Shown here in pieces: positions 4,318 to 23,414 of a stretch of 36,777 nt of DNA. The notes beneath the pieces were generated by a model. The model worked only from the letters and a program-made list of their open reading frames with translations. It searched no databases and had not been told where the DNA came from. This DNA is from a virus, in IMG/VR virus record IMGVR_UViG_3300036933_000006, positions 1-36,777 of that record. One strand, 5' to 3'. The position numbers and the translations under genes are program-made. The stretch's first letter is position 1. Each line of letters opens with the position of its first letter.

Positions 4318-5450
4318 GCGAATAGCTCCCCCGTCACCGTGACGGAGATGGTCTCCGCGCCCTTGTCGTCAACGGCTACGGAAAGCGTGTCAACGCGGGC
4401 CGTGGAGAACGACGATTTGCCGAACTGCACGGTGACCAGATCGCCAAACTCGAAGTCGCGCCCGTAGACGAAAGAGGCGTTCTGCTTGAGCGTCCCGTTA
4501 AAGTTCGCCTGCGGACGGTTGGCCCGGAGGTACGTTTGTCCCTGGCAGGTCAGCAGCGTTGTGTTGCTCGAGTTGGCGGATGAGTCCTGGGCCTCGAAGC
4601 AGGCGAATGGACCGAGTGAAATGAGGTTCGGATCGGTCACGGTGCGAACGGTCTGCAATTGGCCTGTCCCCTGGCCGGTCTCAATGACCGCAGAATAAGC
4701 CGAGGAGTAGTCCTCCTCATAGGTCGCGTCCGAGAAGTTCTCGCCGTCCACAGAAATGATGGTCGGCTTCTGGCCGTAGAGGCTACGATCGACCCCGCGT
4801 TGCCCAGTGTAGATCCGGAACTGGTAGGCCAGCGTGGCGACAATCTCGAAATCGAAGGCGATGAACGTACCGTTTGCCTGATACGAGCCCTGGCACAGGT
4901 CCTGGATTGTCGAGAGGACGTTGCCCCAGGGAGAGGAGTCGGAGACGGACGCGCCCCGGGCATAGCTGGCCTCCACCGAGACCCAGTTAGACCACGATTG
5001 CCCACTTGGGTGGTTGCCTGCGGAGGTAATCAGGTTGTCAGTGACGATCGCTTTGACGACCGCCTCGCAGGTGCCAGAGCGCGTGGTATGTGAGTCCCCG
5101 TCCGGGTAGGCGATGAGCCTTCGGTTCAGCAGGTCCATCAGGTCCACGCACTCAAGCGTGATTGTGCGCTCGCCGGAGGAGTCAAGCTGCTTGGTCCGCT
5201 TCCTGAGCAGCCACTGCGTCTGCATCGGGCGGCGCCTTATCCCGCTACCGTCCCACCGCCAGATGTCCAGAATCGAGTCCGGCTTGCACAGGTTCCACCG
5301 GCGCTCGGAATAGGGGATCTGAAGCGTCGCTGACCCTACCGCGTTGATGCTTCGGGTGTAGGTGAGGCTTGAGGCATCAGCGATGATCTCCGTGAGCACG
5401 CCAGCCGAAGAAGATAGCTCCAAATCGTAGGCAAACCAGTTGGTGCCCAT
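4314..5450 (-). CDS. Baseplate hub / tail protein, siphovirus Gp37-like
   Basis: The 378-residue product resembles the siphovirus ReqiPepy6 Gp37-like tail protein family. It begins with a beta-barrel region (YDLELSSSAGVLTEIIADASSLTYTRSINAVGSATLQIP) typical of gp27-like hub domains. It continues with RKRTKQLDSSGERTITLECVDLMDLLNRRL and ends with a strand-rich domain whose last strands read FGDLVTVQFGK and ETISVTVTGEL. It should sit at the tail tip below the distal tail protein. Its start overlaps the stop of the distal tail gene (TGATG), and the following small genes are coupled to it. The gene order Dit then Gp37-like is the usual one in such phages, which supports the call. Confidence 0.75.
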   Translation of the reverse strand: MGTNWFAYDLELSSSAGVLTEIIADASSLTYTRSINAVGSATLQIPYSERRWNLCKPDSILDIWRWDGSGIRRRPMQTQWLLRKRTKQLDSSGERTITLECVDLMDLLNRRLIAYPDGDSHTTRSGTCEAVVKAIVTDNLITSAGNHPSGQSWSNWVSVEASYARGASVSDSSPWGNVLSTIQDLCQGSYQANGTFIAFDFEIVATLAYQFRIYTGQRGVDRSLYGQKPTIISVDGENFSDATYEEDYSSAYSAVIETGQGTGQLQTVRTVTDPNLISLGPFACFEAQDSSANSSNTTLLTCQGQTYLRANRPQANFNGTLKQNASFVYGRDFEFGDLVTVQFGKSSFSTARVDTLSVAVDDKGAETISVTVTGELFA

Positions 5451-8026
5451 CAGAACGCCGCCAGACTGTTGACGGTGAGGCTCGACCCCGCGCCGTCAAT
5501 CGACAGATGGCGGTTGTAATACGAGATCCACGAGACGGTCCCCGTCCCCTTGGTGAGGATGTTGACGTAATTGGCGCCTGGCAGGAGGCAGAGGGTGGCG
5601 AGATCGCATCCCGGGGCGAGGAACGACCGCAGATCCGAGCGAAATGTGGAGTAAACGCACGGGTTGGTCGGATCAGTGTCTACGATGATGGTCTCGCCAG
5701 CCGCCATGAGCAGATTTCTGAAGTAGATCGCTTGCCCGGTGCGCTCATTGCGGATACCGCAGAGAGTATCCGCGGTTGTGGCCTGGGCGAAGATCCTAAC
5801 CGGGGCGGGAGCTGTGCCCGTGTAGTTGACTACGGTGTTTTGAGCGAGGCGGTAGGTGCCGCTCTGGTTGGTGCCCTGGCAGAAGAACATCGCATCATCC
5901 CATGGATTAACGAACACATTTGAGGTCCATGGCTGCCCAACGCAGGTGGGGGTGGCCGAGACCTTCTCGGCGTGGAGCCCGCTGCCGTCGTAGACGACCA
6001 ATGCGGATTGCCTGCCGTCTGGCGACCCAGCAATGGTGTCGTTCGCGCCGCTGTTGATGTACCCGGGCAGATAAACGCGCCCGGTGCTGTCGAAGGCGAC
6101 GTTGTAGGCGAATGTCGAGGCGAGACTGGTGGTGTCCGCTTGACTGCGCCCGGGGATCGGTACCCACGAGCCTCCGTTGAAATAAGCCATCCCGTAGCTG
6201 GCCGTCCCAGGGGTAATCGAGGTGAACTCGCCAACGGCGTAGAGCTGACCATCCGGGCCCCAGGCCATCCGATAGATCGTTCCGCCGGCGGCAACCGTGC
6301 CGATGGTCGACCAGGAAGTCGCGCCCACGTAGCCGGCGGACATCGTTTGGAAGTTGCTAGTGATGAATAGAGCCCCGTCGGGCCTCAGAGCCAGCCAGTT
6401 GGCGGAGCTGTTCACGGGAGTGCCCCAGGAGGTAGCGGATGCAGCGGGTGATGCTCCGTCTGGGTTGGTGATCTGGCAGACACCATAGTAAGGGCTGGTG
6501 AACGTGCCGCCGACGTATAGGATGTTCCTCACCTGATCGTAGGCGAGGTCCTGCACCGACGAACCACTCGATATAGCGATAGGACAGCTAACGGTCTGCG
6601 CGACGAGATCGAGCCGGACTAACGCGGTGTAGGCATGGCTCACGCCTGCGTAGTCATAGAAGCCGCCGAAGCTGCCGCCGATCCACACGTATCGGGACCC
6701 GGGGCCGAGCTGACAAATGGCATACGGGTAATAGTTGGTCGGATTGCCGCCGGGATTGACTCCCCATGTGTTGATTGCCGCCAAAGTCGAAGGAGCACCC
6801 GTAGTATTAAGGACGGCGAACTGTTTAGCCGCGGCGCCGCCGACATGCGTGAACTGTCCTCCGAGCCATAGCTCGGTATTGCCAGTCACCGGGTTTTGGA
6901 TCCAAGCCCCGCAACTTGCGTTGCCGTCGATTGTGCCAGCAGCGGCGAATGCACCCTGGCCGCCCTTGTCATAGGGCTGCTGGTAGAAGCAGGCGGACGA
7001 CCCGGAAGCCGTGGAGGTAAGCGGCACGGTGGTTTGCTGTCGCTCCCGGAAGTACGGATCGGGAGCATGGAAGTTGACGCTCAGTGCGGCGGTCAGTCCC
7101 GAGAGACTGTCCAAGTTGATCCCGTCCGTGTACTCCGCGTCGATCTCCAGTTGCTTCGAAGGTGGGCTGGGATTGAACACAAGCGTGGCGGGTTTCTGGG
7201 GGATCGAAAGGTTCGAGCTGAGAAGGTACTCCAACCCGGCGAACTTGCTCTCGATGTCGTCGAGCGACTGGCCCGGATAGGATGCAGGCAGCGTGAAGTC
7301 CCTGGCCTGCTTGACGGTTCGCTGGTAGGTTTCCCCGCCGACCAGGCCATTAGGGATGTTCACGTTCGCGACCGGCGCGGTCCCGACCTGCTTCATACCC
7401 TGCAGCGTGAGGACATTGCCGATCGAGACTTCGATGCCCGTTTGCCGGGCCGACAGCGGACGGAGCGAGGGAGATTGCCAGGGGGCGCCTATGAAAGCGC
7501 AGTCACTTGACAGGCCGTCGAAGTAACCCGAGAGCGTGTTCCCGTTCTCCACCTGGAAGGCGTCGAAGTAACAAGCGTTGCCCGCGGTTACTGTCCCGCT
7601 GACGCTTGCAAAAACCTGGACCGAGTTAGCGGTGATCCCGACGCCCGTCACGGTGCAGCTCACCCGCTGCCACTGGTCGAGTTTCGTGTTGTCGGCGTTC
7701 GCGCTGCCGAGAACGGCGTTGCCGGCCTGGTTGAGCAGCCCGATGGCGACGGTGTTGCCACCGTTGCGAAGCCAGACGTAGGCGCTAACCGTCACCGAGT
7801 CCTGCCCGTTTTTAACGGTGAGCGGTTGCGTGAGGACGTTCCCGTTGACCGTGCCGTAGTATTTCAGCGAGCGGATACCGTGCCAGGCCTGGTCCGTCGA
7901 AAGCGCCGCGCCGGTGGCGAGTACCCACGGGGCCGCAGAGCTGCCGGAGTTCGAGAAGTCCGCATTGGCCACCCAGTTGATGGTGGCCTTTGGCATAATT
8001 ACTGCCCAATCGTAGGGAATGCTCAT
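5450..8026 (-). CDS. Distal tail (Dit) protein with carbohydrate-binding and beta-propeller additions
   Basis: At 858 residues this is far larger than a classic Dit (about 250-300). Residues 15-165 form a jelly-roll, carbohydrate-binding-like domain (NADFSNSGSSAAPW, WHGIRSLKYYG, YFDAFQVENG). Residues 190-345 look like the Dit core, ending FHAPDPYFRERQQTTVPL. Residues 350-745 contain repeated strands such as LYVGGTF, LWLGGQFTHVGG, LYAVGEFTSI and VYLPGYINSG, typical of a beta-propeller. Residues 745-858 (GETIIVDTDPTN, LLPGANYVNIL, GTGTVSWISYYNRHLSIDG) match the C-terminal part of Dit/Sipho_tail proteins. The propeller therefore appears inserted into Dit. Such additions usually serve saccharide binding at the host surface. 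ATG overlaps the tape measure stop (TAATG); GGAGCACC lies upstream. Confidence 0.8.
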   Translation of the reverse strand: MSIPYDWAVIMPKATINWVANADFSNSGSSAAPWVLATGAALSTDQAWHGIRSLKYYGTVNGNVLTQPLTVKNGQDSVTVSAYVWLRNGGNTVAIGLLNQAGNAVLGSANADNTKLDQWQRVSCTVTGVGITANSVQVFASVSGTVTAGNACYFDAFQVENGNTLSGYFDGLSSDCAFIGAPWQSPSLRPLSARQTGIEVSIGNVLTLQGMKQVGTAPVANVNIPNGLVGGETYQRTVKQARDFTLPASYPGQSLDDIESKFAGLEYLLSSNLSIPQKPATLVFNPSPPSKQLEIDAEYTDGINLDSLSGLTAALSVNFHAPDPYFRERQQTTVPLTSTASGSSACFYQQPYDKGGQGAFAAAGTIDGNASCGAWIQNPVTGNTELWLGGQFTHVGGAAAKQFAVLNTTGAPSTLAAINTWGVNPGGNPTNYYPYAICQLGPGSRYVWIGGSFGGFYDYAGVSHAYTALVRLDLVAQTVSCPIAISSGSSVQDLAYDQVRNILYVGGTFTSPYYGVCQITNPDGASPAASATSWGTPVNSSANWLALRPDGALFITSNFQTMSAGYVGATSWSTIGTVAAGGTIYRMAWGPDGQLYAVGEFTSITPGTASYGMAYFNGGSWVPIPGRSQADTTSLASTFAYNVAFDSTGRVYLPGYINSGANDTIAGSPDGRQSALVVYDGSGLHAEKVSATPTCVGQPWTSNVFVNPWDDAMFFCQGTNQSGTYRLAQNTVVNYTGTAPAPVRIFAQATTADTLCGIRNERTGQAIYFRNLLMAAGETIIVDTDPTNPCVYSTFRSDLRSFLAPGCDLATLCLLPGANYVNILTKGTGTVSWISYYNRHLSIDGAGSSLTVNSLAAF

Positions 8027-14756: not shown

Positions 14757-16286
14757 TTAGGAAACGCGGGCTCCGACGATGGCCCCCTGGATGTAGGGGT
14801 GCTGGCAACGGAGCGTCTCGGAGAACTGAGTCACGAACGGGTAGATCCTGCTCGTGGCCGCGACCGGGAAGTAACTGTACGGCCGCATGACCGACAGCTT
14901 GAAGGCTTCCGCCTCACGCGCAGTTGCGTAAGGAATCCGATCAGCGATGAACATGAAGTTTCCGTCCGGGATATCGGGATGACCCCAGATGGGAATCGTC
15001 GCCGGCTGTCCGGGGATGCTCGAGGCGAACTTGTTCAGGTAGTCGCCGACGTAGAACGCGCCGGTGAATGCCGACTGGTCGTTCAGCTCTTGGCGGTAGA
15101 CGTATTGCCCACCAGCGATCAAGAGGTTCGAGATGTTGGCCTTGCCGAGCGGGCTCGTGAGGATGCGAGTCGGAGAGGCTTTCCAGGGGGAGTAGCAGTT
15201 GTACAGAATCTGGTCGAGCTCGGCGATGCCTGCACCCTGGGCGGTGAGGGACATCCCATTCATGTCAATCACGTTGGGAGCGGTGGCCCCAGTGACTGCA
15301 TTGGAGCTGAAGTCCACACCGTAGACGTTCTGCTTGGTGCACCACGCCCACGCGCCATTGAATGTGAGGGGGTTGGCGGTACCGTTGGACGACGGCGGAA
15401 CCTTGGCAACAGTTGCCGTCGCGGCGTTGTAGACCACGCGCACTGCGGTCATGCCGATGAAGCAGCCGCCCACAGAGGACGTGACCGCGGCACCGTCGGA
15501 GGCGTAGAACATCTGCGACAGCGGGACCAACTTCGCGGCCCCAGCGTTTACACCGGCGTAGAGCTTGTAGCCCATGGCGCCCGGAACGTATGGCCAGGAG
15601 ATGAGGTCGTACGCGGTCGAGCCAGAGGAGGCGTTGGTCATGTCGACCGCGAAGAGGTCCGACTCTCCGACGCACACGTTGCTGTCCGGCGTGGCCACGA
15701 GGCCCTGGCTGTTTGCAAGGATGCCTTGCAGAGTCAGAGCGGTTACCCAGTAGTGGGTCGGCGCGGTGTAGGTGCCAGACCCACCCTTGACGGCGGTACC
15801 GGAGGCAACAGCCGCGATGCCGTCGTAGTCGCCGCCCAGGCACATGAGCTCATCCAGCCTTTGGATGGAGCCGATGTTGGAGGTGGACTGAACGGACAGG
15901 GCGTCGTCGTACCCGAGGGCTTTATCGACGTCTTCCTGCGCGACCGAACCGTAGATCGCGGCGGTCGCAAAGTTGGCCTTGAAGGGGGTCGCTTCCAGAA
16001 CGTTCTCCGGGCCGACAGCACCCTTGGCGACACCGAACGCGGTGCTGAAGTCCAATCCAAAGCCAACCTGAACCTTCCAGGTGTCGTAGTCCGCACCAAC
16101 ATCGGGTTTGGTGGTCGGCAGCGAGGCGCGGAACGGGGCAACCCAAGGCTGCAGGAGGACCGCGGGGCTGACGAGGTTATAGCCCCCGTAGCCGGTGAGC
16201 GATTTCTGCATGGAGGCCCGGTCGAGCAGCCCGAGCTCAGTCCTCAGCTCGTTCAGCTGGTCAGGGGTGAAGTTCATGTTATCCAT
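14757..16286 (-). CDS. Major capsid protein, HK97-like fold
   Basis: The 509-residue protein has the expected features of a large HK97-fold major capsid protein. There is a helical N-terminal region (FTPDQLNELRTELGLLDRASMQKSLTG), then VSPAVLLQPWVAPFRASLPT, and a C-terminal domain with LTSPLGKANISNLLIAGG, IPIWGHPDIPDGNFMFIADR and PYATAREAEAFKLSVMRPYSYFP. The middle (about residues 180-310, with APTHYWVTALTL and a Val/Thr-rich stretch) is longer than usual and probably an insertion domain on the capsid surface. It follows the protease-scaffold gene. The ATG at 16286 has AAGGAA upstream; a second ATG three codons in is possible. The protease encoded next to it would be expected to trim the N terminus. 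Confidence 0.85.
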   Translation of the reverse strand: MDNMNFTPDQLNELRTELGLLDRASMQKSLTGYGGYNLVSPAVLLQPWVAPFRASLPTTKPDVGADYDTWKVQVGFGLDFSTAFGVAKGAVGPENVLEATPFKANFATAAIYGSVAQEDVDKALGYDDALSVQSTSNIGSIQRLDELMCLGGDYDGIAAVASGTAVKGGSGTYTAPTHYWVTALTLQGILANSQGLVATPDSNVCVGESDLFAVDMTNASSGSTAYDLISWPYVPGAMGYKLYAGVNAGAAKLVPLSQMFYASDGAAVTSSVGGCFIGMTAVRVVYNAATATVAKVPPSSNGTANPLTFNGAWAWCTKQNVYGVDFSSNAVTGATAPNVIDMNGMSLTAQGAGIAELDQILYNCYSPWKASPTRILTSPLGKANISNLLIAGGQYVYRQELNDQSAFTGAFYVGDYLNKFASSIPGQPATIPIWGHPDIPDGNFMFIADRIPYATAREAEAFKLSVMRPYSYFPVAATSRIYPFVTQFSETLRCQHPYIQGAIVGARVS

Positions 16287-16321: not shown

Positions 16322-18163
16322 TTAGCGAACGCCCGCCAGGTCGGAGCTGCGTTTTCCGTCCGAGTTGATGCCCATGTCGTGGATCATCTGGGCCGACTTC
16401 TCGAAGGCCTTGGTCTGGGCAAGCATCGCGTCCCCGCCATAGGCCTCGGTGAGCTTCCGCATGCCGGTCATGGGGTCGATGACGCCCTCGATCATGTCTT
16501 GCATGACCTTGTCGCCCGGGTCTGCGGGGGCGTTGCCAGCGGGGGCGAGGTTGTTGCCGTTGGGCCTTCCGCCCAGGAGCTCCGCGCCGGCGTCTTTGGC
16601 GACTGTCTGCGGGCCTTGCGGGACCGCCTCCAGCGGAGTGGCGATGCTGGCCTGCAGGGTTTCGAACTTGGCGTCGATGTGGCTTCTGATCTCGCCCATG
16701 ACGTCGATGCCGACTGCTGGAGACTCGGGGCCGGGCTTGCCAGCGGTAGCGATGGTCTCCAGCGCTTTCGTGAGCGCGTCCATCTGCTCTTGCGCCTTGG
16801 TCATGGTGCTGTCGGTGCCGGTCGTGCTGGCCGTAGTGGAAGCGGTCGACGGCGTGGAAGCGGTCGATGCGCTGTCCGTGGGGCTGGACGGAGCAGCCGA
16901 GCCGAGCATCACTTCGATGGCGGCTTTGGCTTGGTCGACTGCGTCGGCGCCGCCCTGGTCGAGGATGTCCAGCAGAGCTTTAAGGCCACCGGCCGAATCG
17001 CCCTTCTGAATCGCCACGGCGAGTTCGAGGGTTTTCTTGAAATCCATTGTCTGAACTCCTTGTTCGGGGGAAAGAACTTTTTCAACGGCTTGTATCGAAC
17101 CGGCAACGACCCCATAGGGCTTGCCGAAATAGCTGGTGGCACTGGCGGCGATACGCTTGCCGATCGTGGTCCACTCGTCGGGTCCGTAGCCGCTTTTGCC
17201 GGTGCCCGCGTTGTAGCGGGACATGGCCTGCCTGCAACGACCTTTCGAGTCGAGCGGCCAGGCGTAGTTGTTGGGGTCGGCGTAGTTGTCCACGTTCTGC
17301 CCGTGGGGTTTCCCGTGAGGTGCCGTCGCGGGTGCTCCGGCCTTCCTGGGGATGACGACCTTGCCGAAGAGCAGGTCGTCGGCGGTCTGGGAGGCTGGCA
17401 CGTAGTTAATCTCGGGGACTACCTCTTCGGCGTCCGAGAAGGTGACCGCGCCAGCGGCATCGATGGCGTAGGTGGCCCTGAAGTGCTTGGGGGGCGGAGG
17501 GTCCTCGAAGAAGCAGTCGTCTTCCGAGCAGTCGTAAGGCGACGTGTAGATGACCCAGTCCTCGCCGAAGTCGCACACATACACGCAGGCTTCGGCCGCT
17601 TCGGAAAGGGCGCACTCAAGAGCAGCGAATCGCTCCTGATAGGAGAGGTCCTTGTGGATCTCCTCAGGCTCGGGCTCTTCCGTTAAAGCCTTGGCGAGCG
17701 TGAACTTCGCGACGGGGCAGGCCGGAACGTCAACGAGCGAAATCTCGTCGATGCGCACCTTGTCGTAGACCTTGGTGCCGTCGGGGTCGAAGTGAAACGA
17801 GAGGCCCTTCCCGCCGATCGAGAATCCCTTGAGCGCGCCTTCCTGGACTTTCAGAAAGCAGTCGCGGCCGTCCGTTGCCTGCGAAAGCTTCACGCGGTTC
17901 ATGATGCCGGGGACGCCTTCGGGTGTTTCCTCTTCCCACCACTGCTTGAAGGTTCCGACCACCTTGGGCTGGTGCATCTCGCGTACGCCTATCCAAGACT
18001 CGGCCTCGGCGTATGCGGCCTTGCAGACCCCGATGGGCAGACGTTCTCCTTGCAGGTCCCGGATGTCTCCCGAGGCGAATCCCTCGACCACTCCGGTCTC
18101 AGAGTCGACCTTGGAGAATGGAACGAAGAATCGCAGCGGGTGGGGTGCTGTTTGTGTTGCCAT
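16322..18163 (-). CDS. Capsid maturation protease fused to a scaffold-like region
   Basis: The product is 613 residues. Residues 1-160 match the HK97-type prohead protease (XkdF-like): FVPFSKVDSETGVVEGFAS, likely catalytic His64 in REMHQP, Ser115 in LKGFSIGGKG, and the conserved IDEISLVDVPACPVAKF. Residues about 280-370 resemble a DUF6582-type domain (VDNYADPNNYAWPLDSKGR, GPDEWTTIGKRIAA). The C-terminal third is acidic and helical with Ser/Thr-rich linkers (LELAVAIQKGD, KALLDILDQGG, MDALTKALETIA), like a scaffolding protein. Such fusions assemble the procapsid and then digest the scaffold. The start at 18163 is chosen for AAGGAGAG just upstream and for placing the protease domain at the N terminus; a longer frame to 18265 would cross the terminator at 18184-18207. 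Confidence 0.85.
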   Translation of the reverse strand: MATQTAPHPLRFFVPFSKVDSETGVVEGFASGDIRDLQGERLPIGVCKAAYAEAESWIGVREMHQPKVVGTFKQWWEEETPEGVPGIMNRVKLSQATDGRDCFLKVQEGALKGFSIGGKGLSFHFDPDGTKVYDKVRIDEISLVDVPACPVAKFTLAKALTEEPEPEEIHKDLSYQERFAALECALSEAAEACVYVCDFGEDWVIYTSPYDCSEDDCFFEDPPPPKHFRATYAIDAAGAVTFSDAEEVVPEINYVPASQTADDLLFGKVVIPRKAGAPATAPHGKPHGQNVDNYADPNNYAWPLDSKGRCRQAMSRYNAGTGKSGYGPDEWTTIGKRIAASATSYFGKPYGVVAGSIQAVEKVLSPEQGVQTMDFKKTLELAVAIQKGDSAGGLKALLDILDQGGADAVDQAKAAIEVMLGSAAPSSPTDSASTASTPSTASTTASTTGTDSTMTKAQEQMDALTKALETIATAGKPGPESPAVGIDVMGEIRSHIDAKFETLQASIATPLEAVPQGPQTVAKDAGAELLGGRPNGNNLAPAGNAPADPGDKVMQDMIEGVIDPMTGMRKLTEAYGGDAMLAQTKAFEKSAQMIHDMGINSDGKRSSDLAGVR

Positions 18164-18183
18164 GGCTCTCCTTTCTGGGCAAT

Positions 18184-18207
18184 AAAAAAGGCGCCCAGGA
18201 GGACGCC
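18184..18207 (-). terminator. Intrinsic terminator before the protease-scaffold gene
   Basis: On the minus strand GGCGTCC-TCCT-GGGCGCC (7 pairs including one G-T) is followed by six T residues. This is a textbook rho-independent terminator, between the gene ending at 18240 and the protease start at 18163. It implies either a promoter of its own for the capsid genes or read-through/antitermination. Confidence 0.8.
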
Positions 18208-18239
18208 GTATGGCTGGTTTGCCAGTTGTCGGGGAAGTG

Positions 18240-18680
18240 CTATCGCTTGGTGATCGCCTCACCAATCCCGTACTTGAAGCCGTGGGTGAGGGCTTCTTTC
18301 AGGTCTTGGATGTGACCGGGCCAGCCCTTCCACGGCCCAACGCTCATGGCGAAGTGCTCGCCTGCGCCGTCAGTCCAGTGGAGGACCTTGCCTTTGGCCG
18401 AGAAGCCTTTGCGGCCCTTGAGAATCCAGCGGCCGTAAAACATGCCGTAGAGCTCCATGGTCTTACCGGGCGAGACGATCTTGTAGGCGGGCGAAGGCTT
18501 GTCCCGCCATGCGTATGTCCTCACGTAGTTCGAGGTCGTGGCAGGATAAGCGTTTGGGCCGGAGCCTTTGGCCTCCGCGAACTCCTCGCCTGCTTGCCTC
18601 AGACCGGCGTCAAGGATCTCGTCAAAGTTCTCGAGACCCGGTTTGATCGTCGTGGTGAGGCTGACTTCAAGCAGGCCCAT
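18240..18680 (-). CDS. Hypothetical head morphogenesis-region protein (weak HK97 gp10 resemblance)
   Basis: The 146-residue product begins MGLLEVSLTTTIKPGLENFDEIL and continues AGLRQAGEEFAEAKG. The second half contains YGRWILKGRKGFSAKGKVLHWTDGAGEHFAMSVGPWKGWPGHIQDLKEALTHG. A helical N terminus followed by the strand pair W-x-D-G-x-G and the S-V-G-P motif recalls HK97 gp10-family minor proteins, but those normally lie after the capsid gene. Its ATG overlaps the TAA of the MuF-like gene, so it is translated with it. A strong terminator follows. I consider it a head or neck component of uncertain identity. Confidence 0.6.
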   Translation of the reverse strand: MGLLEVSLTTTIKPGLENFDEILDAGLRQAGEEFAEAKGSGPNAYPATTSNYVRTYAWRDKPSPAYKIVSPGKTMELYGMFYGRWILKGRKGFSAKGKVLHWTDGAGEHFAMSVGPWKGWPGHIQDLKEALTHGFKYGIGEAITKR

Positions 18681-19471
18681 TAAGCTGCCTCCGCATCTGC
18701 CAGATCATCGCCCTCATCGATGTTGATCTCGATGCCCCACTGATCCATGAAGGCTTGACCGAGCGCGGTGTAGCTGGTCGAGACGACCGCCTCACACCTG
18801 CAGTTCACGTGGATTGGGGGTTTGTCATCGTTCGGGCCGAATATCTCACCGTCCATGGGGCCGCACTCCTCACAGACCAGATCGTCCTCTTCGGTCTGGA
18901 AGGTCCAGCTGTCGGAGCCCAGCGCGTCTTGGTAGAGCTCTGTCTGGGCGGACTTCATCCGGGTTGTTTCACTGATGGCGATCATGTCCGCCCGCCAGGG
19001 AGCGAAGGTGCTCTGCAGCGCGTTCGACAGGTCCTGAATCGTCGCGTCGGGGTCGGCAAAGAATTGCGCGACCTTCGCCTGGATGTCCTCCGTCACGGTG
19101 TCGGTGCAGCCCTTGAATCCTCCGATGGGTTCGAATAGCTTTAGGTAGCGGTCGAAGAGTTCCTCGTCGGTGAAGAGGTCCGCCTTGGCGCCTATGGTGC
19201 GCGCCCAGGTGTTTTCACCCAAGACGAGCGTGCTGCTGGCATTGGTCGCACCTTGCATGTACGCCTTGTGCAGGGCCTTAGCCACCTCGTCGGTCACCTT
19301 CGGCCGTAGCGCCTTAGCCACCTTGCCTTGTGTGATCTCCGGCAGGGCGTTCTCCACGATCGCCCACGCTGCCTTATTGCCTTTGCGGATCTGCGCGGCG
19401 AAGGCTTTCTCGGCGGCGACGCGAGCCTTGAGGATGCCGGGGCGTTGGTCGTTAAGGAGGAGGTTACTCAT
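18680..19471 (-). CDS. Minor head protein, phage MuF / SPP1 gp7-like
   Basis: The 263-residue product ends in the diagnostic MuF region: IAISETTRMKSAQTELYQ, followed by DDLVCEECGPMDGEIFG and PPIHVNCRCEAV. In the family this is a conserved fold with a cysteine/histidine cluster. The N-terminal part is helical (VAAEKAFAAQIRKGNKAAW). MuF proteins bind the portal, are packaged in small numbers and help DNA packaging or ejection. The start at 19471 is chosen because AAGGAGGAGG is just upstream and the reading frame upstream lacks coding character. It overlaps the end of the 80-residue gene by eight bases. No toxin domain is attached, unlike in many MuF proteins; in this phage the extra effector-like domain is on the portal instead. 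Confidence 0.88.
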   Translation of the reverse strand: MSNLLLNDQRPGILKARVAAEKAFAAQIRKGNKAAWAIVENALPEITQGKVAKALRPKVTDEVAKALHKAYMQGATNASSTLVLGENTWARTIGAKADLFTDEELFDRYLKLFEPIGGFKGCTDTVTEDIQAKVAQFFADPDATIQDLSNALQSTFAPWRADMIAISETTRMKSAQTELYQDALGSDSWTFQTEEDDLVCEECGPMDGEIFGPNDDKPPIHVNCRCEAVVSTSYTALGQAFMDQWGIEINIDEGDDLADAEAA

Positions 19472-19706
19472 CAGCCTTGATGATGATCTTCGACCAACAC
19501 CCAGCTGCGAAAGAAGCAATGAGAGCAGTGGGGCTCCCCAGATGCAGGTTGCCTGCAGGGTCCACCGAGTAGCCTTCGGCCGAGATATCGGCGCAAGCCA
19601 GGGCGGTGCCGTCCTGGTAGAGAATCTCCCAATTGACGACGGCGGGCTCGGCTGGCTCCGCCGCTTTCTCTTCGGCCCGAAGCAGCTTGACGTTCTTCTC
19701 ACTCAT
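19464..19706 (-). CDS. Hypothetical 80-residue protein between portal and MuF genes
   Basis: This small protein (MSEKNVKLLRAEEKAAEPAE) has an acidic, proline-containing N terminus and a compact C-terminal part (WEILYQDGTALACADISAEG, LHLGSPTALIASFAAGCWSKIIIKADE). It lies 30 bases downstream of the portal gene, with AGGGGGAAGAAG before the ATG, and overlaps the MuF-like gene. No family is recognised. Its position suggests a portal- or capsid-associated role, or an adaptor that works with the kinase domain of the portal, but nothing in the sequence proves it. Confidence 0.65.
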   Translation of the reverse strand: MSEKNVKLLRAEEKAAEPAEPAVVNWEILYQDGTALACADISAEGYSVDPAGNLHLGSPTALIASFAAGCWSKIIIKADE

Positions 19707-19736: not shown

Positions 19737-22040
19737 TCAATCTCCGAAACCGATTGGATCTTCGTTCATGGTCGTTTCGCCGGTTGGCAATACTGAAGTC
19801 TCGGGGTCCTCGGTAATCAGGATGCCACCAGCTTCGATCAGCGTATTCAGCCGTGCTTGCGCGAGCTCGCATGCGGTGGGTCCGACTAAGTGCTCGATCG
19901 AACCCCAAAGCTGTATGTCGTGCTGCAGGTGCTTGAGATTCGCGATCAAGCCTGGAGGCAACGCCTGGTTTTCCATCGCCTCGACGAATGGCGAGAAGAC
20001 GCCTTGGTTGGTGGTCGGGAACGTCAAACCGTTGTCCCACATGATCGGCCGCTGCGGATCGTATGGGTGGGTGCCCCAGTTATTCACATGGCGGTCGCCC
20101 TGTCCTGAGATGTAATCCAGGATCGCGGCGCGCTGCAACCAGTAGAGCGAATACTGATCCGTACCCCGGGGGGGCTTGGAATCGCGGACGTAGTAAAGGA
20201 CCGCGCCGGGATCTCCATTCAGCTGGGTGCAGTAGGCCACCGGAACGAGGTAGAAGCCGAGCGCCCGGTCAAGCAGGTACGCTGCCTCTTCGCGGAGGAA
20301 TTGGAAGCCGCCGATTCTTGAGATCAGCTTCGGGTTCTCGCCAGAAAGCGGTTTCCAGACCCCGGGCCAGCTGGGGAGTTGATGCCCTTCGGCGTCGGGC
20401 TCGGGGACGATTGCCACCACGAACACCTCATTGGCATGTCCGCCGGTGGGCCACTCAAAATCAATAGGTGCCACGATCGGCGCGCCGTAGTATTCGTCAT
20501 CGTCGGGAGTGCAGCCAGTGACTTTGCGAAGTGTGGCGTTGGCCAGTTTGGCGAGGTCCTCCTGCCGGTACCCGGACCCCAGAACAAACGTTGTCCGCTC
20601 GGGGTGTTCTTTGCCGGTGGTGAGCAGATTCTTACTGACTGAATCGTCGGAGACGGTAGTCTCGGGGTTTTGGTCTATGGCACCATCGGCGCCCGACTGG
20701 CCTTCGAGGGTTGACACATTGCCCACCCAGGTCACTTGCCCGCCGCGGATAACCATGTAGACGTTGCCGCCTTCAACCGGCGGATGCCCTGAGGCGATCC
20801 GGAACTCGTTAAGGGTGATGCCCGCATTCTCGAACGCCGACAAAGCCGCGGCTTGCGCTGCGGTCGGGTCAGCATCAGCCGCGGGAAGCGAAAGCTTGAA
20901 TGTGCGGCCGCCCAGGTCGAGCTTCTGCAGGAAGCTGTTACACATGGCCTCGACGTGATCGGCGATCGGCCCGAGCCCCATGCGAAACAAGGCTTGTGCC
21001 ATTGCGTCCTCGAAACCCGATCCGCCCAGACCATGCCCGGGCACCTTAGCGAGCTCTGATACCGGCAAGCCCGAGGTGAAGGCCAGGTTGTTGAACGCCT
21101 GCCCATAGGCCACTGCCGGCCAGTCTGGGCTCTTCGTCTCGGTCCACTTGCCGCCGAATGGCATCAGCTTCATTCGGGACCGGGCCTGAGCGCCGCTCAT
21201 CAGCTCGTCGTAGCGCTTCTCCCACTCCGTGATCTGGTCGGGCGATAGCTCGGCATCCGGGGTGAAGATGGACTCGGGGAGGTTGCCCTCGCGATAGTGC
21301 GCCAACGAGAAGGCTTTGATGTTCGCGAGCAGCATCACATCGGACCACGCCTGCTCGACGGGCGGATTGCCGTATGGAGCATTCTCTCGGATATTCTGGG
21401 GCATGTATTCGACCTGGTCGGCAGTCCACCAACCAAACGGCATGCCCTTGATGACTTGGCAGTATGCCGGATTCTCGCCTCGAGGAGTCCGACCCTGCAC
21501 GTCGACGCAGCAAAAGAGCGTCGAGCCGTCCATCACCACAAGCGCCTGATCGTTCAGGTCGTGGTACAAGGCGGGCGCATCGTAGATGTACATGTTCCGC
21601 ATGAGGCGCCCCAGCCACGTCTGCCAGTGGAGCTCGCGGTCTGGCGTTTGAGTGAACCAGTAGAGCGGACCCTTCGGGCCCTCTACGTTTCCGTCTGCGT
21701 CCACGATGTGTGGCGTGTAGATCGTCATCTCGCGAGTGAGCACCCGGTTAATCATCTGGGCTTCGCTCACGAGGTAGAACGTGTCTCGAAGCATCTCAAA
21801 CGACGTGAGGCCGTAGCCGATGCGTGCGTTAACGGAGGCGACGTTGGCCGCCACCGGATAGTCGATCGTCCGGGGCATATTCTCTTCGTAGGGCTGCGGT
21901 GTCGGCCGTATCGGGCTGCCGGGCCCGACCGTGGCCATAGTCCACTCTTGAGGAGTGGGCTGCTCCACGAGCGTCGGCGGATGATAGACCGCGCCTGAGA
22001 TTGCCTTGCCGAAAGAGCTTAGCCCCGAGCGAATACCCAT
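19737..22040 (-). CDS. Portal protein fused to a PI3/4-kinase-like (SCO1664-type) kinase domain
   Basis: The 767-residue protein has two parts in one uninterrupted frame. Residues about 55-430 are a portal (SPP1/HK97 type): DTFYLVSEAQMINRVL near the start, ANIKAFSLAHYREGNLPES, AYGQAFNNLAFTSGLPVSEL, and LNEFRIASGHPPVEGG at its end. After an Asp/Gly-rich linker (445-475), residues about 540-745 match the SCO1664-type PI3/4-kinase-like family. Landmarks are Lys563 in VWKPLSGE, Glu584/585 in FLREEAAYLLDRALG, the catalytic loop GQGDRHVNNW with Asp649 and Asn653/654, and metal-binding Asp669 in IMWDNGLTFP. All are intact, so phosphotransfer activity is plausible; the substrate is unknown. The start codon directly follows the terminase stop. 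Usual portals are 400-550 residues. The linker around 475-540 is unassigned. Confidence 0.88.
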   Translation of the reverse strand: MGIRSGLSSFGKAISGAVYHPPTLVEQPTPQEWTMATVGPGSPIRPTPQPYEENMPRTIDYPVAANVASVNARIGYGLTSFEMLRDTFYLVSEAQMINRVLTREMTIYTPHIVDADGNVEGPKGPLYWFTQTPDRELHWQTWLGRLMRNMYIYDAPALYHDLNDQALVVMDGSTLFCCVDVQGRTPRGENPAYCQVIKGMPFGWWTADQVEYMPQNIRENAPYGNPPVEQAWSDVMLLANIKAFSLAHYREGNLPESIFTPDAELSPDQITEWEKRYDELMSGAQARSRMKLMPFGGKWTETKSPDWPAVAYGQAFNNLAFTSGLPVSELAKVPGHGLGGSGFEDAMAQALFRMGLGPIADHVEAMCNSFLQKLDLGGRTFKLSLPAADADPTAAQAAALSAFENAGITLNEFRIASGHPPVEGGNVYMVIRGGQVTWVGNVSTLEGQSGADGAIDQNPETTVSDDSVSKNLLTTGKEHPERTTFVLGSGYRQEDLAKLANATLRKVTGCTPDDDEYYGAPIVAPIDFEWPTGGHANEVFVVAIVPEPDAEGHQLPSWPGVWKPLSGENPKLISRIGGFQFLREEAAYLLDRALGFYLVPVAYCTQLNGDPGAVLYYVRDSKPPRGTDQYSLYWLQRAAILDYISGQGDRHVNNWGTHPYDPQRPIMWDNGLTFPTTNQGVFSPFVEAMENQALPPGLIANLKHLQHDIQLWGSIEHLVGPTACELAQARLNTLIEAGGILITEDPETSVLPTGETTMNEDPIGFGD

Positions 22041-23414
22041 CTAAAATCCCCCTAGAGTGCGTGCGTTCATCTCGGCTACTTCCTCCGCCCACGTCTGCTT
22101 GCGATCCGTGACGGCGGGCTCGGACTCCGCCCGGTATTCCGCCCGCAGCATCTCGAGGCGGTCATAGTCGGCGGCGGTCCATCGGCTGCCGAGGTCAAGA
22201 CCCATCCCCAGATACCTGAGCGAGTCGAGTCTGTGAAAGGTTTCTTTGTCGGCGATCTGCTCGGTGGTCTGTCCGGATTCGTCCATCTTGCGGTGGTAGG
22301 TGCCGAGCTCATCCCTTAGTCCGGAGAGTGTGTCGAACACATGTAGCCGGCGAGTCTTAAACAGGCCCACCACTCGGTCGATGCCTATCTCCACATCGGG
22401 GATCTTCGGAGCGAGTAGGTGGACGCCCTCCTGGGACCAGTCGCGACGCCACTGCGTCTCCGATTGCGCCCCGCCCCAGCCCGTGACGAAGTTCGTTCCC
22501 TCGACGCGATTCCTCACGCGCCGAGCATGTTCCTTGGTCGTGAGCCCGCCTTCGAGCGACTCGTGATAGGCGTAGTAAATGTTCCTGGCTGGATCCAGTG
22601 CCAGGTAGAGGATCGCCGTATGTGCGCCACCAAAGTCCACGCCGATGTAGCGTGGCCACTCGGGCGGGATCGAAAATGGGTGGACCAGATGCCCGCCCTC
22701 TTCGACGTAGTTGTCGGTGTAATCCTCATAGATGAGGCCTGATGGCCGGACAAACTGGCCTTCGTAGAACATGGCGTATTTCCACGCCGGCAGAGTCGCT
22801 TTCATGCGCTCCATCTCTTCGGCGGGGAATGCAGGGTTAGCGGTCGAGGCGAATTGGATTACTGCATAGTCGGGATCGCCGGCCCGCCAGCGGTCGTAGA
22901 CTTGGCTCTTCAGCCAGCCCAGGTTGTAAGGCGTGGTCGTGATGAGCGCCCGGCCTTGGTGAAGGCTCAGACGTCTCTGGATAGCTTCCCAGGCTCCCAG
23001 GCGGAAGGTTGACTGTCCGGCCTCGTCAAGCCACGCCGCCTTTGCCGTCGCGCTCTCCAGGGATTCGGCGTTGGTTGCCGAGCCGAAGATGACGCGCGAT
23101 CCGTCCTTCATGTTGAAACACTTGGAGGTCTCGCGCCATTCGCCCAGGTGAAGGGTATGCTCGAAGAGCGATCGGAACTCGGGGAGCATCTTGAGGTTCA
23201 GCAAGGGAAACGAGGCCGTGACGGCGAGATAATCGCCGGGGCCGCGCTTCTGGATTTCCCTCAGCAGCCAGATCGGACCAAAGGCCGTCTTGCCACTTTG
23301 GCTGCCGGCGAGCATGAGGACAAACCGCCGATCGCAGCGGTAGACCTGCGACTGCCCGGCATGGAAATTGAAATGGCATTGGTTCTTCTCGTCAATCCAC
23401 TTCAGTTCCGGCAC
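22041..23414 (-). CDS. terL: Terminase large subunit
   Basis: The 457-residue protein is the DNA packaging motor. The N-terminal ATPase has the Walker A motif AGSQSGKT (36-43), Walker B with catalytic glutamate AAWLDEAG (126-133) and the coupling motif TTTP (158-161). The C-terminal RNase H-like nuclease starts with Asp260 in YIGVDFGGAHTA and continues with GWGGAQSE and further acidic residues, including the DSLRYLGMGL region. It pumps DNA into the procapsid through the portal and cuts it. The gene overlaps the small terminase gene by 23 bases and abuts the portal gene, the normal order. Confidence 0.93.
   Translation of the reverse strand: MPELKWIDEKNQCHFNFHAGQSQVYRCDRRFVLMLAGSQSGKTAFGPIWLLREIQKRGPGDYLAVTASFPLLNLKMLPEFRSLFEHTLHLGEWRETSKCFNMKDGSRVIFGSATNAESLESATAKAAWLDEAGQSTFRLGAWEAIQRRLSLHQGRALITTTPYNLGWLKSQVYDRWRAGDPDYAVIQFASTANPAFPAEEMERMKATLPAWKYAMFYEGQFVRPSGLIYEDYTDNYVEEGGHLVHPFSIPPEWPRYIGVDFGGAHTAILYLALDPARNIYYAYHESLEGGLTTKEHARRVRNRVEGTNFVTGWGGAQSETQWRRDWSQEGVHLLAPKIPDVEIGIDRVVGLFKTRRLHVFDTLSGLRDELGTYHRKMDESGQTTEQIADKETFHRLDSLRYLGMGLDLGSRWTAADYDRLEMLRAEYRAESEPAVTDRKQTWAEEVAEMNARTLGGF

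Follow-up and report, generated by a model that had tools for sequence, protein, structure and literature searches.

A PI4K-II/FAM20-like kinase domain at the C terminus of the portal protein in a clade of uncultured tailed phages

We report a phage portal protein whose C-terminal domain is predicted to be a PI4K-II/FAM20-like kinase. The window (the whole stretch of DNA analyzed, 36,777 bases) is a single virus record in a public set of viral contigs and belongs to an uncultured bacterial virus. The kinase was detected in about 20 distinct viral contigs and in one contig of a Candidatus Hydrogenedentes MAG, and the portals that carry it form one clade. Our preferred reading, to which we give a probability of about 0.48, is that an active kinase is carried in the capsid and serves host takeover.

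Results

The fusion gene and its genomic setting

The fusion is encoded on the minus strand (19737-22040) by a single, ATG-started open frame of 767 codons (767 aa). The initial annotation had described an uninterrupted frame of about 2.3 kb between terminase and MuF genes, and this was borne out. Directly upstream lies the terminase large subunit gene (TerL; 22041-23414, minus strand; phrog_2, E=1.5e-32; PF03237, E=4e-10), which ends immediately before the fusion starts; the MuF region follows on the other side. The MuF protein itself (18680-19471, minus strand; PF04233, E=6e-10) likely starts at the ATG at 19471, because the longer version from a GTG start would include a stretch rich in Ser and Arg, which overlaps an 80-aa ORF. 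This small ORF (19464-19706, minus strand), located between portal-kinase and MuF, is overlooked if MuF begins at the upstream GTG; a weak relative was present at the same place in contig L105 (E=2e-6).

Further downstream of the fusion are a head maturation protease (16322-18265, minus strand; phrog_9427, E=1.6e-12) and a protein at the major-capsid position (14757-16286, minus strand), which matched a family of unknown function (phrog_13692, E=9e-21) and whose synteny is kept, with relatives matching at the same place. From gene position alone, we infer that its product is the capsid protein. The window also codes for tape measure, minor tail proteins, head-tail adaptor, protease, primase/helicase and replication initiator, and therefore represents a tailed phage.

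Residues ~116-415 of the fusion (20796-21695, minus strand) correspond to an HK97/PF04860-type portal domain. The match to phrog_2662 covered residues 115-456 (E=9e-26), and that to PF04860 (E=7e-7) scored 29 bits, below the cut-off of 39 bits, which was exceeded in relatives L009, L015, L118, L120, L122, L124 and L130. Portals of Arthrobacter and Thermoanaerobacterium phages were 27-28% identical to this region. Judged by profile match and by position between TerL and the head genes, the N-terminal part of the ORF is an HK97-type portal. In one relative (L102, 3823-6774), a zinc-ribbon-like CxxC insert was observed within the portal domain (residues 237-272; ADK_lid, E=7e-4). Alignment placed a linker between portal core and kinase at residues ~456-497 (20550-20675, minus strand), the place where relatives have 2H, DUF5661 or ADP-ribosyltransferase (ART) domains.

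Identity of the C-terminal domain

The kinase domain extends over residues ~498-744 (19809-20549, minus strand), as supported by a family profile, an AlphaFold model and Foldseek. The initial annotation had assigned residues about 540-745 (19806-20423) to a kinase of the SCO1664 type; the kinase was confirmed, with its start moved to near residue 498. The motifs were present at the positions given there (K563 in KPLSGE, R583-E-E-A-A-Y, G648-D649-R-H-V-N-N and D669-N-G-L-T-F-P).

The two public profiles proposed for checking this assignment gave weak matches, both below cut-off. With the C-terminal part alone, TIGR03843 matched in the N-lobe, at the KP-x-x-GE ... RE-x-AAY stretch (E=1.2e-5), and PF00454 at the catalytic loop (E=0.2). 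Scores for TIGR03843 were 21.5 bits for the window, 24.7 for the C-terminal part and at most 34.4 for relatives, against a cut-off of 172.4; for PF00454, they were 12 bits for the window and 25.0 for the best relative, against a gathering cut-off of 27.1. Thus, the suggested SCO1664-type assignment holds as distant kinship and not as membership (19-34 bits vs 172), the nearest solved structure being a type II PI 4-kinase. The public profiles by themselves provide hints only, and it is the relatives that settle kinase identity. A profile built from 16 relatives, excluding the window and its nearest relative, L008, matched residues 498-739 with E=3.6e-87, whereas none of 1000 shuffled versions of the window C-terminal part matched it at E=10 or better. 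When the family profile was compared with all PDB sequences, its top matches were type II PI 4-kinases (E=5e-5) and FAM20 (E=5e-4). In the HMMER alignment, the GDRHxNN motif lies over DRGNDNWL of PI4KII-beta, with the DR-x-x-x-N loop aligned, and PI4KII-beta carries IDNGLAFP at the place of DNGLTFP.

Structure prediction pointed in the same direction. An AlphaFold model of residues 489-767, based on an alignment of 18 relatives, had pLDDT 85.4 and pTM 0.83, and consisted of an N-lobe with strands around helix C and a helical C-lobe with several helices after the catalytic loop; a single-sequence model of the full ORF (pLDDT 33) was discarded. The nearest solved structure in a Foldseek search was PI4KII-alpha (E=3e-8), followed by PI4KII-beta, FAM20C/A (E=1e-5 for FAM20C) and PI3K. 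Global TM-scores reached only moderate values (about 0.45-0.54), in keeping with a distant relationship. The modeled C-terminal domain thus has a PI4K-II/FAM20-like, that is PI3/PI4-kinase-like, fold. A portal crown or barrel in this region, or absence of any kinase profile match, had been named as the outcome that would speak against a kinase; the prediction requested to decide this gave a kinase fold instead (pLDDT 85).

That the match is due to chance, or that the domain is just ordinary portal sequence, could be entertained when the window alone is considered, given its weak matches to public profiles. The independent family profile (E=4e-87), lack of matches among shuffled sequences, kinase neighbors of the predicted structure and occurrence of the kinase as a separate ORF in some relatives refute this explanation, and we regard it as having next to no chance of being correct.

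Active site and selection

Conservation was counted over 24 kinase domains. The beta-3 lysine of KP-x-x-GE (K563; 20352-20354), helix-C glutamate (E585; 20286-20288), catalytic-loop aspartate of GDRHxNN (D649; 20094-20096) and metal-binding asparagine of the same loop (N654; 20079-20081) are each kept in 23 of the 24, and the DFG-like metal-binding aspartate of DNGLTFP (D669; 20034-20036) in all 24 (all on the minus strand). Either Glu584 or Glu585 had been proposed as the helix-C residue; E585 fits this role, with Gln in L008 at this position, and E584 was rejected, as only 17/24 domains keep it. The intact set of K563, E585, D649, N654 and D669 is best explained by a catalytically competent kinase. 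Overall, the initial proposal of a kinase fold with an intact active site on a genuine portal is supported by the model, Foldseek and residue conservation.

In one domain, L132, the equivalents of K563, E568, D649 and N654 are all lost; their joint loss makes it look like a pseudokinase. The same contig, also designated L124, codes for a portal with this degenerate kinase (5450-7591), in which much of the C-lobe is retained, and the gene after the portal codes for a 1205-aa MuF-Nudix protein.

Kinase dN/dS was 0.08-0.21 in three of four pairs: 0.12 (L009/L015), 0.08 (L118/L122, saturated) and 0.21 (window/L008, near saturation). The value for the fourth pair, L113/L114, was 0.37, reflecting a swap of the C-lobe; the portal comparison for L009/L015 was left out because it was out of frame. 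These codon comparisons show that the kinase is under purifying selection.

The two phages of the fourth pair (L113, 5150-7780; L114, 2995-5616, with 5616-6273) are nearly identical, with no upstream difference, and differ by 133 nt in the kinase C-lobe, from hinge to stop. An HNH endonuclease-like ORF (by eye; 5611-6240, minus strand) is present only in L114, beside the swapped C-lobe. A diversity-generating cassette was considered and rejected; co-conversion by a homing endonuclease is the likelier origin of this swap.

Occurrence among portals

Neither the window kinase nor the ORF alone detected relatives among viral or genome contigs, and a nucleotide pattern encoding GDRHxNN plus a following W or similar residue had no match. 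The family was recovered only by searching with a portal alignment, not with a kinase alignment. This search yielded 80 portals, of which the best eight (L008-L015, where L011 and L012 stand for one protein) all had the same C-terminal domain; the other 72 had neither kinase motifs nor a kinase-profile match. Occurrence was then assessed: the kinase profile was run twice against viral contigs and once against genome contigs, and another scan, by portal only, covered a sister group. The suggested search for other portals with the same C-terminal extension thus added about 20 phage contigs. Every relative is a contig of metagenomic origin.

In the portal tree, 17 fused, two split and one degenerate member grouped in a single clade with 100/100 support, which excluded all 67 portals without a kinase. 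The second kinase-bearing subclade came partly from kinase searches, which favor kinase-positive members, and the portal-only scans are the unbiased part of the survey. In the portal-only scan, every portal of at least 42% identity had the kinase, fused or nearby, unless the contig end cut it off, whereas no portal of 29% identity or less had a kinase by the same profile. Kinase and portal distances were correlated (Mantel r=0.78), at a level that none of 5000 permutations reached; kinases and portals had similar mean identities (42% and 41%, respectively). Given the single clade, clade-wide presence, correlated distances and like identity, the simplest history is a single gain of the kinase followed by joint inheritance with the portal. 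The order TerL, portal-kinase, MuF, protease and capsid-position gene is kept, or at least the part of it visible on each contig and in the search. In three members, the kinase is a separate ORF, either overlapping the portal ORF (L120, L121) or located 1.4 kb downstream (L136). In L136 (6570-8271 and 8273-9085), an 89-kb contig, the separate kinase ORF lies between genes that, by eye, look papain-like and trypsin-like protease genes.

No cultured phage with such a kinase was found: a tblastn search of 50,697 phage records returned nothing for the kinases of the window, L013 and L118, and for that of L136 only a marginal match (LittleE, E=0.05). In BFVD, a similar domain was present in a predicted viral protein annotated as 'Phage portal protein, HK97' (A0A6J5S481, E=3e-6), in head-morphogenesis proteins and in an ART protein encoded by Mycobacterium phage Onyinye, and sequences of this kind have therefore already been deposited. 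A cellular protein in a Gammaproteobacteria MAG (L104, 4492-6543) contained a phosphoesterase-like region (by eye) followed by a distant relative of the kinase N-lobe (E=3.5e-9).

Other domains at the portal C terminus

Relatives carry additional domains between portal and kinase, or after the kinase, including 2H phosphoesterase (L010, L013, L130), DUF5661 (seven contigs: L014, L091, L095, L102, L115, L118, L122), MuF (L015) and ART. The last is an exoenzyme domain fused to the portal in L120 (4708-6897; PF03496, E=1e-29), where the kinase is encoded by the ORF that follows and overlaps it. In related Arthrobacter portals without a kinase, the portal is followed by Nudix and then MuF. In L118 (1574-4756), the C-terminal 200 residues after the kinase contain HNHPGG...FS-x-x-D, which is JAB/RadC metallopeptidase-like by eye and had no Pfam match. 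In L107 (2368-5370), an intein (PF14890, E=3e-10) interrupts the MuF protein.

Discussion

Enzymes fused to portals have precedents. Iyer, Aravind and co-workers described 'polyvalent proteins', with InPase, PBECR and 2H domains on portals and injection inferred (PMC5512222), and Nudix and 2H domains on portals were predicted to be packaged and injected (PMC9503650). The portal-kinase has the architecture of this class, an enzyme domain joined to a virion/packaging domain and encoded among late genes; like these proteins, for which packaging and injection were proposed, it has the enzyme fused to the portal among packaging genes. It differs in that the enzyme is a PI4K-II/FAM20-like kinase, constant across a whole portal clade. 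The initial annotation had considered the fusion not described. This is correct for a kinase on a portal, for which no report was found in open-access literature, but not for enzyme-portal fusions, since InPase, 2H, PBECR and Nudix versions are published (PMC5512222, PMC9503650). As portal-fused effectors are already described, the fusion extends a known type.

A similar arrangement is that of Arthrobacter phages Sonali and Mufasa8 (L002, L005), in which a related portal (27-28% identity) is followed, within a single ORF, by an enzyme and then MuF; however, this enzyme is a Nudix hydrolase, with no kinase present. Polyvalent-protein kinases that lack the C-terminal kinase subdomain are also known, and they too are kinases in phage polyvalent proteins with predicted packaging, but they represent a different group, as the window model has C-lobe helices after the catalytic loop (PMC5512222). 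Two phage enzymes cited in PMC5512222, T7 protein kinase and T4 Alt, modify proteins of the host at an early stage of infection, but the former is not a portal domain, and the latter is an ADP-ribosyltransferase that is not fused to the portal. The closest solved folds, type II phosphatidylinositol 4-kinases (4hnd, 4wtv) and FAM20 kinases (5yh0, 5wrr), have the DR-x-x-x-N loop in common with the window kinase, and PI4K-II also IDNGLxFP, whereas the window kinase is 12-20% identical, shorter and from a prokaryotic virus, the likeness being one of sequence and model. The actinobacterial SCO1664 family (TIGR03843) is similar in the N-lobe and differs in context and in score (19-34 bits vs 172).

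Retention across an entire branch of related viruses makes it probable that the kinase has an important role. In HK97-type portals, the C terminus lies beyond the crown and points into the capsid. About twelve kinase copies would therefore be built into the prohead vertex, lining its inside. The prohead protease or ejection would probably free the kinase domain, which, carried in the virion, could phosphorylate a host or early-infection target during genome entry, acting as a takeover enzyme in the manner of T4 Alt or MuF-linked effectors. ATP would be expected before packaging or after ejection and should be scarce in the full head. We favor host takeover because the slot is common to effector-type domains and because the kinase can be detached; in L120, L121 and L136 it has its own ORF close to the portal, which implies that ring membership is not needed. 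The domain types found beside the portal (ART, 2H, DUF5661, MuF and Nudix) are those predicted to be packaged and injected (PMC5512222, PMC9503650). Several observations run against host takeover: portals normally remain in the capsid; clade-wide presence, co-inheritance and portal-like conservation are steadier than in most swappable effectors; and L124/L132 retains much of the domain without the active site.

The same stability, unusual for an effector, makes a role in assembly a strong rival. In the ATP-permeable prohead, it would phosphorylate portal, MuF, scaffold/protease or terminase, and thereby time protease action, packaging or head completion. Presence in every assessable clade portal, conservation equal to that of the portal, co-inheritance, constant gene order from TerL to the capsid-position gene and the presumed scarcity of ATP in the filled capsid are all consistent with this role, but kinase-less portal relatives manage without it, the neighboring ART, 2H and Nudix domains have no obvious assembly role and one member has a dead active site; on balance, we consider it less likely than host takeover. 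It is also rather doubtful that the kinase is obligatory for a whole portal lineage in the sense that the DNA-gating vertex is a signaling enzyme that phosphorylates capsid or packaging parts and times packaging or ejection, rather than an injected effector. The substrate might also be a small molecule or lipid (as for PI4K-II and FAM20B), or the enzyme an AMP-transferase, as some enzymes with a kinase fold are, delivered or made late, and not a protein kinase. The closest solved structures, PI4K-II lipid kinases and then FAM20 protein and sugar kinases, would fit such an activity, as would the 2H and Nudix partners, which act on nucleotides; phosphatidylinositol, however, is absent from most bacteria, and we think this option improbable. 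Finally, the C-lobe kept in L124/L132 without K563, D649 and N654 could be taken to mean that the domain is a kinase relic, in decay or purely structural, whose one remaining function is to support the portal crown. Retention of active-site K, D and N in 23 of 24 members, low dN/dS and occurrence of the kinase as a separate ORF make this very improbable.

Portals, the rings that DNA passes on its way into and out of the capsid, are usually treated as passive, and a lineage-wide kinase would provide a defined case of a signaling enzyme at the packaging vertex, be it for instant host takeover or for assembly timing. In addition, the portal C-terminal slot, with its kinase, ART, 2H, DUF5661, Nudix and MuF domains, may offer a positional route to further virion-borne effectors.
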